A model generated the notes under the pieces. The model did no database searches. It was given only the letters and a program-made list of their open reading frames with translations, and was not told the origin of the DNA. A stretch of 23,811 bases of DNA. Source: a virus. Below, in pieces: positions 11,017 through 22,215 of the stretch (positions within the stretch are counted from its first letter, which is position 1; each line of letters starts with the position of its first letter). The position numbers were made by a program, and so were the translations under genes. The stretch lies in IMG/VR virus record IMGVR_UViG_3300028548_000447, positions 1 to 23,811 of that record; one strand, 5' to 3'.

Positions 11017-11038
11017 ATCAAATAAACCAACTTAATTT

Positions 11039-11048
11039 CTATTATATT
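11039..11048 (+). promoter_or_regulatory. CTATTATATT element upstream of the protease gene
   Basis: Copy 2 of the repeated element. It lies in the 45-base gap between the tape measure gene and the XkdF-like protease gene, 13 bases before the ATG at 11062, and is followed by an A-rich tract (AAAAAG). The copy at 11788 has nearly the same sequence and distance, so these two form a sub-class apart from the copies at 1287 and 14206. A late promoter or a translation enhancer are both possible. Confidence 0.4.
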
Positions 11049-14181: not shown

Positions 14182-14205
14182 ATACCAAACAAAAACGGAA
14201 CTTTT

Positions 14206-14215
14206 CTATTATATA
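14206..14215 (+). promoter_or_regulatory. CTATTATATA element upstream of the 158-residue structural gene
   Basis: Copy 4 of the repeated element, three bases before the ATG at 14219. The flanks (GGAACTTTT before, GTA after) closely match copy 1 at 1287. It comes 24 bases after a strong intrinsic terminator, so a new transcript must either start here or read through. This supports a promoter role, although the distance to the ATG would then imply a leaderless or nearly leaderless mRNA. Confidence 0.45.
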
Positions 14216-18663: not shown

Positions 18664-18695
18664 TTTGCCTTTTAAGGCACTTTCTTTTCTTTTTA
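18664..18695 (+). terminator. Likely intrinsic terminator closing the late block
   Basis: TGCCT (18666-18670) and AGGCA (18675-18679) form a short hairpin with a TTTA loop, followed by a T-rich tract (CTTTCTTTTCTTTTT). It lies 10 bases after the metallophosphoesterase stop codon and before the early promoter region, as expected for the boundary of two transcription units. Confidence 0.6.
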
Positions 18696-18761
18696 ATACT
18701 AATATACTACACTTAACTTCTAATCTTTCCTAGAGTTAAAATCAATATTTATGATAATAAG

Positions 18762-18779
18762 TGTTTATAAGTTAGTTTA
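18762..18779 (+). repeat. 18-bp direct repeat, copy 1 (early promoter region)
   Basis: TGTTTATAAGTTAGTTTA occurs here and, perfectly, at 19970-19987. In both places it begins 33-34 bases upstream of a Bacteroidota -7 element, so it covers roughly the -45 to -28 region where the -33 box or an activator/operator site would lie. A shared regulator or a variant -33 element is inferred. Confidence 0.7.
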
Positions 18780-18806
18780 AAACATTAATTTTTGTATATT
18801 TGCAGT
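18780..18806 (+). promoter_or_regulatory. Early promoter P1, Bacteroidota type
   Basis: The -7 element TATATTTG (18795-18802) matches the Bacteroidota consensus TAnnTTTG exactly. No canonical TTTG is found at the usual -33 spacing; instead the 18-bp repeat occupies that place. The expected transcription start, a few bases after the element, coincides with the ATG at 18807, implying a leaderless or nearly leaderless mRNA unless translation begins at the ATG at 18831. Confidence 0.7.
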
Positions 18807-19055
18807 ATGAAAACAATCAATATAGATACAATGAACTCACTAGAACAAAAATTATCAAACGAATTAACATTAAAAGGATTCTCTTTTACAGTTGGACAAG
18901 TTCAATTCGTAGCTAACTCAACTCATTGGATACTCCCTAAAGGAAAAACATTTAATCAATCTATGAGCGGCAGCTTTTACTTAGCTGAAATGGTTGAGAA
19001 TTTCATTGACTTCTGTAACTTGACTAAATTTGAATCAGATTTTGCTTCACTATAA
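18807..19055 (+). CDS. Small early protein of unknown function
   Basis: An 82-residue protein if started at the ATG at 18807, or 74 residues from the in-frame ATG at 18831. A TTG at 18792 lies within the promoter and is rejected as a start. It has no membrane segment or known motif; visible segments include GFSFTVGQVQFVANSTHWIL and a C-terminal helix (LAEMVENFIDFCNLTKF). It is the first gene after promoter P1. Small leading genes of early operons often encode host-takeover proteins, but nothing in this sequence shows that. Confidence 0.6.
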   Translation: MKTINIDTMNSLEQKLSNELTLKGFSFTVGQVQFVANSTHWILPKGKTFNQSMSGSFYLAEMVENFIDFCNLTKFESDFASL

Positions 19056-19064
19056 TAATTAATA

Positions 19065-19127
19065 ATGAAAAATCAAGAAAACATAATAACAATTAAAAAC
19101 GACATGGTAATAAGCTACACCTATTAA
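19065..19127 (+). CDS. Possible 20-residue leader peptide ORF
   Basis: A very short ORF (MKNQENIITIKNDMVISYTY) fills part of the 97-base gap between two early genes. Its stop codon lies inside the loop of the hairpin at 19111-19137. It could be a leader peptide or simply chance; there is no further support. Confidence 0.2.
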   Translation: MKNQENIITIKNDMVISYTY

Positions 19128-19137
19128 AGATAGCTTA
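19111..19137 (+). promoter_or_regulatory. Perfect 7-bp hairpin between early genes
   Basis: TAAGCTA (19111-19117) and TAGCTTA (19131-19137) are perfect inverted repeats around a 13-base loop, 15 bases before the next ATG. There is no T tract after it, so it is not a standard terminator. It may be an RNA structure affecting translation of the gene at 19153, or a protein-binding palindrome. Confidence 0.35.
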
Positions 19138-19152
19138 ATTAAAACTCACAAA

Positions 19153-19365
19153 ATGAAAAATTTTAAAATGAAGGAAGCAACAAGCAAACAGGAAGCTATT
19201 ATTAGCTTGTTAGATGTACAAAATAATCAACCTATACTTTTACCTGACAATACAGTTTTAACTGAATACGGACTTAATTTATTAAAATTTCAAGTCGTTA
19301 GAGATTTATATATTAAAGTCAAATCAGCTTACTATAATTCTCAGGATAACTCAAAAAGATTTTAA
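19153..19365 (+). CDS. Small early protein, 70 residues, unknown
   Basis: A 70-residue protein beginning MKNFKMKEATSKQEAIISLL. The second Met (residue 6) is an equally possible start. It is helical at the N-terminus, with a central beta-turn segment (NQPILLPDNTVLTEYG) and a basic C-terminal helix. No family is recognised. It is followed after one base by the next ATG, so the two genes are probably co-translated from the P1 transcript. Confidence 0.55.
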   Translation: MKNFKMKEATSKQEAIISLLDVQNNQPILLPDNTVLTEYGLNLLKFQVVRDLYIKVKSAYYNSQDNSKRF

Positions 19366-19366
19366 G

Positions 19367-19744
19367 ATGACAATACAAGATGCAGAATATTTAGAACATT
19401 CAACTTATGTAGATTATAATAAACCTCATTACTCTAAATTTATGGGCTACCAATTAGACAATAAAAAAGTAATGGCAGAGGAATGGTATTTAAAACCTCA
19501 ATACTTATCTACAGGAATAAATACTTATGATAGGAAGTCAGGACATTTCAGTAACGACTTGAGCTATAACAACAGGTCAGTAATTGTAGTGGGAACTGAA
19601 CTACAGAATTTTAGAAAATTTGAAGAAATGTTAAAGACTTATGGATGGCAATGTCAGGACTCTTGGGATAGAGAATTAAAACCTGAATACTTGGCATACT
19701 ATAAAGAAAACAATAATTCACCAATAATAATAAATTTAATATAA
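19367..19744 (+). CDS. Early protein, 125 residues, unknown
   Basis: A 125-residue protein rich in Tyr and Asn. It contains a tryptophan/tyrosine-rich segment (EEWYLKPQYLSTGINTYDRK), a hydrophobic strand (RSVIVVGTEL) and KFEEMLKTYGWQCQDSWDRE. No catalytic or DNA-binding motif is recognised and there is no membrane segment. Its stop overlaps the ATG of the next gene (TAATG at 19744). The context is an early operon of small unknown genes. Confidence 0.6.
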   Translation: MTIQDAEYLEHSTYVDYNKPHYSKFMGYQLDNKKVMAEEWYLKPQYLSTGINTYDRKSGHFSNDLSYNNRSVIVVGTELQNFRKFEEMLKTYGWQCQDSWDRELKPEYLAYYKENNNSPIIINLI

Positions 19745-19968
19745 TGCCAATAGAAATGCAAGAAGAAAAACAAGATCTGATACACAAAAGAATGAATGAT
19801 ATAAATACATTCCAAGCACACGAAAATGAAGTTTATTTAAGAGGAACAGATGAGTACGGAAAAGACTTTCAAATAGTTTTCAGTGCTTTTGATTTTATAG
19901 AATGGATCGATACAGAGAACTTAGAATACATTAAAAAACAGGTCATTAAGTATATAGAAACAAAATAG
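19744..19968 (+). CDS. Early acidic protein, 74 residues, unknown
   Basis: A 74-residue protein with an N-terminal charged helix (EMQEEKQDLIHKRMNDI), a beta hairpin (VYLRGTDEYGKDFQIVF), and a C-terminal helix (WIDTENLEYIKKQVIKYI). No family is recognised. It starts on the last base of the previous stop codon and is the last gene before promoter P2, whose 18-bp repeat begins one base after its stop codon. Confidence 0.6.
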   Translation: MPIEMQEEKQDLIHKRMNDINTFQAHENEVYLRGTDEYGKDFQIVFSAFDFIEWIDTENLEYIKKQVIKYIETK

Positions 19969-19969
19969 T

Positions 19970-19987
19970 TGTTTATAAGTTAGTTTA
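19970..19987 (+). repeat. 18-bp direct repeat, copy 2
   Basis: This is a perfect second copy of TGTTTATAAGTTAGTTTA, beginning 34 bases upstream of the -7-like element of promoter P2. The identity spans the full 18 bases while the flanks differ, so selection on a protein- or sigma-contacting site is likelier than a recent larger duplication. Confidence 0.7.
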
Positions 19988-20015
19988 TATCAATAATTTT
20001 GAGTCTATTTGTAAT
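19988..20015 (+). promoter_or_regulatory. Early promoter P2, Bacteroidota type
   Basis: TCTATTTG (20004-20011) matches the -7 consensus TAnnTTTG at all but one position. The 18-bp repeat takes the place of the -33 box as at P1. The expected transcript would start near 20016 and carry a leader of about 50 bases with a hairpin before the ATG at 20067. It would drive the recombination/replication genes. Confidence 0.6.
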
Positions 20016-20028
20016 ATTAAAAGGTAAA

Positions 20029-20049
20029 AGCCACCACCATAAAGGGGCT
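20029..20049 (+). promoter_or_regulatory. Leader hairpin of the P2 transcript
   Basis: AGCC (20029-20032) plus CC (20034-20035, after a one-base A bulge) can pair with GGGGCT (20044-20049) around an eight-base loop, inside the inferred 5' leader. It is unusually GC-rich for this DNA, suggesting a conserved structure that could stabilise the message or control translation of the gene at 20067. Confidence 0.35.
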
Positions 20050-20703: not shown

Positions 20704-21051
20704 ATGGAAATAAAAGGAATACTATTAAAAAAACTTGACCTAGAAACAGGAATAAGCAAAGCAGGAAAAGAATGGGAAAAACAATCAATAGTTTTAGACA
20801 TTGGGGGGGACTTCAATAATGAAGTTTGTATAAGTGCTTTCGGGGATAAAGTAAAACAAATTAGAGATAAAGAGATTGGAATGCATTTAACAATTCTTTG
20901 TAATGTTTATTCACGAGAATTTAAAGGTAAGTATTACAACTCAATAGATGGGTACCACTTTACAAATACATCTAATAAACCTGAAGAAATATCAGGAAGG
21001 GCATTAAATGTTCATTTTGAAGGGACTACACCTGAAGATTTACCATTTTAA
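20704..21051 (+). CDS. ssb: Single-stranded DNA-binding protein, DUF3127/OB-fold type
   Basis: A 115-residue protein starting MEIKGILLKKLDLETGISKA, followed by GKEWEKQSIVLDIGG, an OB-fold beta-barrel pattern seen in DUF3127-type proteins of Bacteroidota. The C-terminus is EGTTPEDLPF, matching the acidic, aromatic-ended tip (D/E-x-x-P-F) by which bacterial SSBs recruit repair and replication partners. That tip, the size and the neighbours (recombination and DnaA/DnaD-like genes) support an SSB that coats single-stranded DNA during phage replication. Confidence 0.75.
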   Translation: MEIKGILLKKLDLETGISKAGKEWEKQSIVLDIGGDFNNEVCISAFGDKVKQIRDKEIGMHLTILCNVYSREFKGKYYNSIDGYHFTNTSNKPEEISGRALNVHFEGTTPEDLPF

Positions 21052-21052
21052 T

Positions 21053-21562
21053 ATGAGTAAAGAAAAAACATTCATCAGTCTATGTAACCTCACTACTGAA
21101 ATAGTGGGGTTGCCTATAGGCTCTTTGTCGTGTAAGTCAAGAAAACAAATATATCAAGTACCAAGAGCAGTAGTAAGTATTGTTGCTAGACTTGAAGAAA
21201 ATGTTCATCAGACTATTATAGCAAAGGAATTAAAAAGACATAGAAGTAATATATATCATTATGAAAAAATGCATGTAGCAAACTATAAGAGCTTTAAAAA
21301 ATACAGAGATCTATTTATTGAAGTATCAAAATCTTATGCAAGCATTAAAAAAAATAAACCTAAATTCAAAACAAAAAAAAGATTAAAAGCATTTCTTACT
21401 GAAAATAATATAAAGTCAAGCGAAACATTTCAGACTACATTAAATGTAAGGGTAGGTAATTTTGATGTGGATTTAAAATTAAGTTACAAGGACTTCTATA
21501 ATGTAATTGAAATTATTAAATTTGCTCTCGCAGATTATGATTATGAATACAAAGTGATATGA
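21053..21562 (+). CDS. DnaA domain IV-like DNA-binding protein
   Basis: A 169-residue protein. Residues about 7-75 resemble the DNA-binding domain IV of DnaA: ISLCNLTTEIVGLPIGSLSC, then KSRK and VPRAVVSIVARL (the KSR...ARQIA-like helices), then IIAKELKRHRSNIYHYEK, which parallels the I-x-x-x-F-G-x-R-D-H-S-T-V-x-H DnaA signature. No AAA+ ATPase domain is present. The C-terminal part (LNVRVGNFDVDLKLSYKDF) is unrecognised. It may recognise a phage origin or DnaA boxes, or recruit the host replisome. The ATG at 21053 was chosen because it comes right after the SSB stop; an in-frame ATG at 21008 would overlap the SSB tail by 44 bases. Confidence 0.65.
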   Translation: MSKEKTFISLCNLTTEIVGLPIGSLSCKSRKQIYQVPRAVVSIVARLEENVHQTIIAKELKRHRSNIYHYEKMHVANYKSFKKYRDLFIEVSKSYASIKKNKPKFKTKKRLKAFLTENNIKSSETFQTTLNVRVGNFDVDLKLSYKDFYNVIEIIKFALADYDYEYKVI

Positions 21563-22215
21563 AAAACCTTTTAAGCAGTACAGCTTTTATTATAATGAAC
21601 AAAGAACTAGCAAGAAGGATAGGGTTAAAAGAGTCTATCTTGTTAGCAGACTTAATTAGTAAAGAGGAATACTTCATAAAAAATGGCACAATTAGTGAGG
21701 GGTGGTTTTTTAATACTGAAGCTAATATTGAAGCAGATACTACTCTTAACCCCTATCATCAGAGAAAGTGCCTTAAAACTCTTAGGAAGTATGAAATAAT
21801 AGAAACTAAGCGTAAAGGAATACCTGCAAAACAATACTTTAAAATAAATGAATATAAAGTTATGCAAATTTTAAACAACTTGGTAGTTAAAGATTGCACA
21901 ACTATTAATAAGAATAAAGAAATAAAAATAAATAATAATCTTATACTACAAAGGAGAGATGATTTTATTTTAGATGTAAGGTCGTTTGATTATGATAAAA
22001 ATATTTTAGAAAGTTTTTTAGATTATTGGACAGAGCCTAACAAGTCAAACACTAAGATGAAATTTGAACTAAATAAAACTTGGAAAACAGCGTTAAGATT
22101 AAAAACGTGGGTAGCTAACCAAAAGAAATGGGATAAACCACAAGCTAGTAAAAATACAATGTCTAAATTAGATGCTCAAATTAATGAATGGAATAAAGCA
22201 AAAGAATTATTATGA
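21559..22215 (+). CDS. Helix-turn-helix replication protein, DnaD-like candidate
   Basis: A 218-residue protein. Residues about 12-95 form a winged helix-turn-helix of the phage replication-initiation type: IGLKESILLADLISKEEYFI, EGWFFNTEANIEADTTLNPY, HQRKCLKTLRKYEIIETKRK. The C-terminus (SFLDYWTEPNKSNTKMKFEL, then KTWKTALRLKTWVANQKKW) resembles the end of phage DnaD/replisome-organiser-like proteins. It probably loads or organises the replisome at the origin. It overlaps the DnaA-like gene by four bases (ATGA), consistent with joint production. Confidence 0.6.
   Translation: MKNLLSSTAFIIMNKELARRIGLKESILLADLISKEEYFIKNGTISEGWFFNTEANIEADTTLNPYHQRKCLKTLRKYEIIETKRKGIPAKQYFKINEYKVMQILNNLVVKDCTTINKNKEIKINNNLILQRRDDFILDVRSFDYDKNILESFLDYWTEPNKSNTKMKFELNKTWKTALRLKTWVANQKKWDKPQASKNTMSKLDAQINEWNKAKELL

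Follow-up and report, generated by a model that had tools for sequence, protein, structure and literature searches.

Regulator sites that replace or overlap the -35 element occur at the middle promoters of phage T4, where MotA acts, and at pho boxes, and the sigma-A promoters of Bacteroidota carry a TTG at -33. The -7 element of these sigma-A promoters is TAnnTTTG, placed at -12 to -5 (PMC9723704). The DnaA box has the consensus TTWTNCACA (PMC5835720, PMC5043019), and R399, R432 and H439 of DnaA are DNA-contact positions (PMC5043019). At the E. coli promoters dnaA2p and mioC, DnaA represses through closely spaced DnaA boxes, which at dnaA2p amounts to autorepression (PMC5835720), and the half-arrays of oriC consist of boxes that follow one another in a single orientation close to genes for replication (PMC5742627). 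Transcription control in phages of Bacteroidota is little known, and the locus described here supplies a concrete cis element together with a candidate protein.

The window, by which we mean the whole stretch of 23,811 nucleotides that was analysed, covers part of the genome of a Bacteroidota-type tailed phage, in which terminase, portal, structural and metallophosphoesterase genes are followed by early and replication genes on the plus strand (Table 1). Site 1, at promoter P1, lies between the metallophosphoesterase gene of the late block and the first early gene. Site 2, at promoter P2, precedes the 128-aa gene heading a block that encodes, besides the O-like initiator, a DUF3127 protein resembling SSB and a protein of 169 aa. 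A stretch of the conserved GGCACTTTCT terminator region (18670-18685) also forms a perfect 16-nt inverted repeat with 21763-21778, inside the coding sequence of the O-like initiator, which may be chance.

Table 1. Features of the early region, in coordinates of the window.
Feature	Position	Strand	Basis and remarks
Terminator-like hairpin TGCCTTTTAAGGCA with T-rich tail	18666..18679	+	Pattern scan; GGCACTTTCTTTTC conserved in relatives; ends late (structural) unit after metallophosphoesterase
Site 1, unit 1, GTGTTTATAAGT	18761..18772	+	PWM 10.5; minus-strand box TTATAAACA at 18762-18770
Site 1, unit 2, degenerate, TAGTTTAAAACA	18773..18784	+	PWM 5.5; 12 bp after unit 1, 22 bp before -7
P1 -7 element TATATTTG	18795..18802	+	Sequence; matches TANNTTTG
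First early gene, 82 aa	18807..19055	+	ORF; no Pfam or PHROG match
Site 2, unit 1, TTGTTTATAAGT	19969..19980	+	PWM 11.7; minus-strand box TTATAAACA at 19970-19978
Site 2, unit 2, degenerate, TAGTTTATATCA	19981..19992	+	PWM 5.8
P2 candidate -7 element TAATTTTG	19994..20001	+	Perfect TANNTTTG; TTG at 19969-19971, spacer 22
P2 alternative -7 element TCTATTTG, non-consensus	20004..20011	+	Sequence; choice of the preliminary description
Leader with H-type pseudoknot potential	20023..20049	+	GGT/ACC interleaved with AGCC/GGCT; counterparts in relatives
128-aa early gene, first behind P2	20067..20453	+	ORF; conserved in hundreds of relatives
Single-strand DNA-binding-like protein (DUF3127)	20704..21051	+	PHROG 2.8e-15; PF11325 4.6e-20
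169-aa protein, DnaA domain IV-like (residues 1-100), no AAA+	21053..21562	+	Profile matches of the family, AF2 fold
Replication initiation O-like protein	21559..22215	+	PHROG 4e-10

A preliminary description of this DNA had pointed to an 18-bp sequence, TGTTTATAAGTTAGTTTA, in front of two early promoters. Both copies are exact and lie where they had been placed, on the plus strand at 18762-18779 and 19970-19987, and the distances to the -7 elements then named are likewise correct, at 33 from 18762 to TATATTTG (18795) and 34 from 19970 to TCTATTTG (20004). The 18-mer is not scattered over this record, a possibility that the description had raised for the genome: a search of the record on either strand with up to three mismatches found no third copy beyond the two promoter sites. 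The flanks had been taken to differ, and here the comparison gave another result, the similarity of the two sites running past the 18-mer to 37 nt at 86%. An exact 18-bp direct repeat arose in 10 of 200 windows (5%) simulated with an order-2 Markov model, and for that reason the case is not based on the repeat alone. The core 9-mer (TGTTWATAA, or TTATWAACA on the other strand) is present at only two places in the 23.8 kb, both intergenic and each 5' of a -7 box. In IMG/VR the exact 18-mer was found at five loci, two of which are relatives of the window phage; the other three are copies of one unrelated virus and carry no TANNTTTG box at the expected place. The 18-mer was accordingly rejected as a conserved entity in favour of a 12-bp unit, and in the window it amounts to a good unit followed by half of a second, degenerate unit.

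Relatives were gathered by scanning first for the metallophosphoesterase and the 128-aa protein and later for the 169-aa protein, which gave more than 200 loci, and 180 regions following the metallophosphoesterase gene were clustered into 99 groups to lessen relatedness, which inflates all counts reported here. 3' of the metallophosphoesterase gene, relatives carry arrays of two to four tandem 12-bp units with the consensus TTGTTWATAAYT, in whose PWM T2, G3, T4, A7 and T8 reach 0.88-0.98. Two or more units spaced by exactly 12 bp are present in 83 of the 99 distinct phage clusters, the array being conserved across a large group of uncultured phages, and the earlier suggestion that the block has a function of its own at early promoters is supported for the 12-bp unit. 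Autocorrelation over 49 distinct upstream regions gave z = 20 at lag 12 and z = 13 at lag 24, values that are upper bounds since related rows inflate z. The -7 element was aligned in about 50 relatives. Its distance from the last scored unit is 21-24 or 33-35 in all 74 clusters with TANNTTTG in range, that is, four of twelve phases, and a unit slot therefore always lies over the -33 position. Arrays are nearly confined to early promoters. A scan for a sigma-70 pattern stayed at chance level. About 20-60 bp 5' of the array and 3' of the late terminator, L098 and other relatives share a conserved dyad, CTAGACAAGC-TATAAA-GTTTGTCCTAG, which is altered in the window. A BLAST match at the promoter to Maribacter phage Panino was set aside, as only the generic -7 and leader region matched and no array is present.

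In most relatives P1 has the canonical arrangement of a Bacteroidota sigma-A promoter (TTG, 18-21 nt, TANNTTTG), from which it differs in that the bases at -33 also belong to one of the repeats. At this position the window reads TAG where TTG would be expected. Two units are recognisable at site 1, and the one over the P1 -33 box is the poorer; in L142 the corresponding sequence, TGTTTATAAGTTTGTTTATATCA, is one base off the window 18-mer and reads TTTG where the window has TTAG. The preliminary description had concluded that the repeat replaces the -33 box. Comparison with the relatives argues against this, as the box falls inside the block, in its second unit (TTAG, 18772-18775), and is itself one of the repeats, TTG in most relatives and TAG in the window. 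A merger of operator and -33 element would explain a pattern that resembles a promoter without a -33 box. The -7 element proposed for P1 holds, whereas the one proposed for P2 has a rival at least as good, since TAATTTTG is a perfect TANNTTTG box and TCTATTTG departs from the consensus. The true -7 element of P2 is thus ambiguous (19994 or 20004), and with TAATTTTG the promoter has TTG at -33 and a 22-nt spacer. Given the -12 to -5 placement of TAnnTTTG (PMC9723704), P1 transcripts are expected to start near 18807, the A of the ATG, and to be leaderless. The array is like T4 MotA sites and pho boxes in placing a presumed regulator site at or over the -35 element and unlike them in its 12-bp pitch, MotA boxes being single and pho-box repeats having an 11-bp pitch; among the proteins examined, none of the MotA or OmpR/PhoB type was found.

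At the second promoter, exact TTATWAACA precedes the 128-aa gene in 35 of 56 distinct regions, against 1.5 expected from shuffles. Most relatives have it on the plus strand, opposite to the window, and adjoining the expected start site, and several have two such units at 12-bp pitch. The minus-orientation version is found in the window and L003, and a minus-orientation pair also in L145, L164 and L218; the version of the window and L003 was perhaps copied from P1. The co-regulation of both operons by one factor, as earlier proposed, is supported by these counts at the level of the family.

Read on the minus strand, the unit is TTATWAACA (TTWTWAAC in some lineages), one mismatch from TTWTNCACA at core position 6, where nearly all units have A and not the C of cellular DnaA boxes; with that core mismatch it falls outside the DnaA-box consensus. 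A likeness this close has a 4-5% chance of arising in a random 12-mer of the unit's composition. The layout of two to four units at 12-bp pitch with the last slot at -33 is that of a DnaA-box operator, the phage box itself departing from the DnaA consensus. As at dnaA2p and mioC, several close 9-mer boxes lie upstream of and overlap the promoter, and a domain IV-type protein is encoded by the regulated genes, feedback repression being the expected outcome in the phage. The phage system differs from these promoters in its box, TTATWAACA, in the exact 12-bp pitch held in phase with the promoter, and in a phage-encoded protein that has no AAA+ domain and whose repressing role is inferred.

Among 32 aligned members of the 169-aa family, 31 match Bac_DnaA_C (PF08299) with a best E-value of 1.4e-6, although members inspected singly score under the curated Pfam cut-off, and the window's own protein, taken alone, gave no DnaA match to the Pfam profile. 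A sequence profile run against the PDB did not find DnaA, whereas the fold comparison did. The AlphaFold2 model of the protein (pLDDT 90) matches 3pvp_A with Z 15.4 over 96 residues (rmsd 1.8 Å) and 1j1v_A with Z 14.7, both being complexes of DnaA domain IV with DNA. DnaA structures take the first six places in the fold comparison (Z 10.8-15.4), and the first non-DnaA match has Z 5.5. The alignment to 1j1v is nearly gap-free, model residues 5-97 pairing with chain residues 374-467; counted along it, R399, R432 and H439 of DnaA correspond to the invariant R30, R62 and H69, and H434 to the invariant R64. A changed specificity residue beside a changed box base would suit a box unlike TTWTNCACA and is suggestive. 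A handful of sequences with the box variants TTATTAAC and TTTTTAAC, compared informally by eye, showed no difference in their recognition-helix residues. The remainder, residues 101-169, folds into a small alpha/beta domain whose length does not suffice for an AAA+ ATPase, and because the ATPase domain is lacking the model describes not a DnaA but a protein that joins a DnaA-type DNA-binding domain to another C-terminal domain.

The DnaA-like protein is present in 126 loci of the phage group, with its gene 1.3-2.3 kb downstream of the array; in the window the gene belongs to the run of genes that follows both promoters, at about 2.3 kb from P1 and 1.1 kb from P2. A tblastn search of 50,697 phage records with two members as query did not find it. 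Nonlabens phage P12024L, Maribacter phage Panino and one hattifnatt segment have no array, and all three also lack the 169-aa protein. The P12024L locus (L174, 16409-18674) is a syntenic relative without array and without DnaA-like protein, and the annotation of its record, which names a 2OGFeDO oxygenase and an HMC glucosyltransferase, points to modified DNA.

What the analysis shows is a repeat locked in phase with the promoter, a 9-mer conserved at each of the two early promoters, a protein with a DnaA-like fold, and array and protein occurring together. The reading we prefer, if only just on balance, is that the 12-bp units form an operator array in the -33 region of sigma-A early promoters that is bound by the phage 169-aa protein, most likely for feedback repression. 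On the minus strand each unit consists of the DnaA-box-like TTATWAACA and then a gap of 3 bp, and the units share a single orientation. Host sigma-A RNA polymerase would fire P1 and P2 at once upon infection, and the 169-aa protein would then accumulate and occupy the boxes. Because the last box and the -33 box have bases in common, the protein would compete with sigma region 4 at -33 and both promoters would be shut down, by analogy with E. coli DnaA at dnaA2p and mioC. Here, it appears, a phage has made a regulator of altered specificity out of the DNA-binding domain of a cellular initiator. Binding of the boxes by this protein, competition at -33 and repression are what we infer. Against the operator stands the fact that array and protein co-occur within one phage group, which could reflect common descent, and that in most relatives the P2 boxes are oppositely oriented around the start site and do not lie over -33; activation or an origin function would yield much of the same pattern.

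It is rather unlikely that something else binds the array, be it another phage regulator (for example sigma-like or winged-helix), host DnaA or another host protein, with the DnaA-like protein acting elsewhere. Likeness to the DnaA box alone is weak, and candidate regulators are encoded at L003:8786-9343 (sigma-like, weak Sigma70_r4) and L003:7568-7987 (winged-helix-like, weak). For host DnaA the A at box position 6 would be wrong unless the host box differs from the cellular C. More generally, the occurrence of the DnaA-like protein in 126 loci of the group argues for that protein, as does the lack of arrays in the two other Bacteroidota phage genomes and the one segment scanned. The scan of genome contigs gave two MAG contigs and no others, one with the title of an archaeon and one with that of a Campylobacterales bacterium, neither of them Bacteroidota. 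If the host DnaA box proved to be TTATNAACA, or arrays to be frequent in flavobacterial chromosomes, binding by the phage protein would become a weaker reading.

The same boxes and the same protein might instead serve chiefly as a phage replication origin, of the iteron or DnaA-box type, and the overlap with the promoter would then, as a side effect, let transcription activate the origin or provide autoregulation. Here the close, one-orientation boxes resemble the oriC half-arrays (PMC5742627), the array is AT-rich and adjoins the replication and recombination block with its O-like initiator, and the 169-aa protein is DnaA-like. An origin, however, has no need of a strict phase-lock to the -7/-33 spacing, a second box set lies at P2, and the array, unlike oriC half-arrays, is locked to a promoter. 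With its 169 residues the protein also has no AAA+ ATPase domain for melting DNA, and GC skew has no turning point in the window. We consider this hypothetical origin unlikely to be the main function.

Very unlikely, in our judgement, is a pure promoter element, in which repeated -33-like TTG or an AT-rich upstream element would aid sigma-A binding with no dedicated regulator. The last unit does coincide with the -33 TTG, the upstream DNA is AT-rich and sigma-A of Bacteroidota uses TAnnTTTG (PMC9723704), yet a G3 that is conserved and a pitch of 12 bp kept up for 36-48 bp are more than an A/T tract would show, curvature would require the helical repeat, which 12 bp misses, and the same 9-mer occurs at P2 3' of the -7 element in opposite orientation. 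That the perfect 18-bp identity is chance, or a recent copy of P1 into P2 without function there, is highly improbable: such repeats do arise in the simulated windows, and at P2 the 18-mer is confined to the window and L003, a near twin of it (L145, L164 and L218 have a weaker counterpart there in minus orientation), but P2 of most relatives bears the same 9-mer anyway, both 18-mers precede -7 boxes, the window has no further copy of the 9-mer, and recent copying of P1 into P2 is itself compatible with an operator for the phage protein.

For this widespread group of marine Bacteroidota phages as a whole, it is conceivable, though doubtful, that a stand-alone DnaA DNA-binding domain re-tuned to TTWTWAACA from TTWTNCACA assembles on a 12-bp-pitch array fused with the -33 element and thereby both silences early transcription and marks the phage origin.

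Directly 5' of the start codon of the 128-aa gene, the window, L039, L049, L154, L218 and others have the potential for an H-type pseudoknot, in three covarying versions (GGC/GCC with CCTA/TAGG; GGT/ACC with AGCC/GGCT, as in the window; AGG/CCT with TGC/GCA). The cut-off of the pseudoknot score was reached by 20 of 89 distinct leaders, against none in each of three shuffle sets. Rfam gave nothing above the gathering cut-off in 99 kb that included this leader, the weak matches being judged chance. Translational control of the 128-aa protein by the leader is possible.

Between the terminase gene and the next gene, the minus strand of the window (1280-1175) holds a small-RNA-like unit with a TTG-N19-TATGTTTG promoter, a length of roughly 70-100 nt and a strong terminator hairpin; the U-run of this hairpin ends at the stop codon of the terminase gene. 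The same layout with a different sequence is found in many relatives (L195, L200, L203, L205, L211, L219 and others) and is absent in others, and in some of them a TTGTCGTAA motif is common to the unit. A further motif, TTTCTATTATAT, stands just 5' of late gene starts at 1284-1296, 11036-11048, 11787 and 14203-14215. These sites are four of the five occurrences of TCTATTATA in the window, while the total count of the 13-mer at two mismatches is near chance; TTTCTATTATA is also conserved 5' of the gene that follows terminase in those relatives whose sequence extends to it. A sigma-like protein with a weak match to Sigma70 region 4 has its gene in the early region, a short way 5' of the terminase genes (L003, 8786-9343; L145, 11696-12244), and the TTTCTATTATATA-type motifs before late genes may be its promoters.
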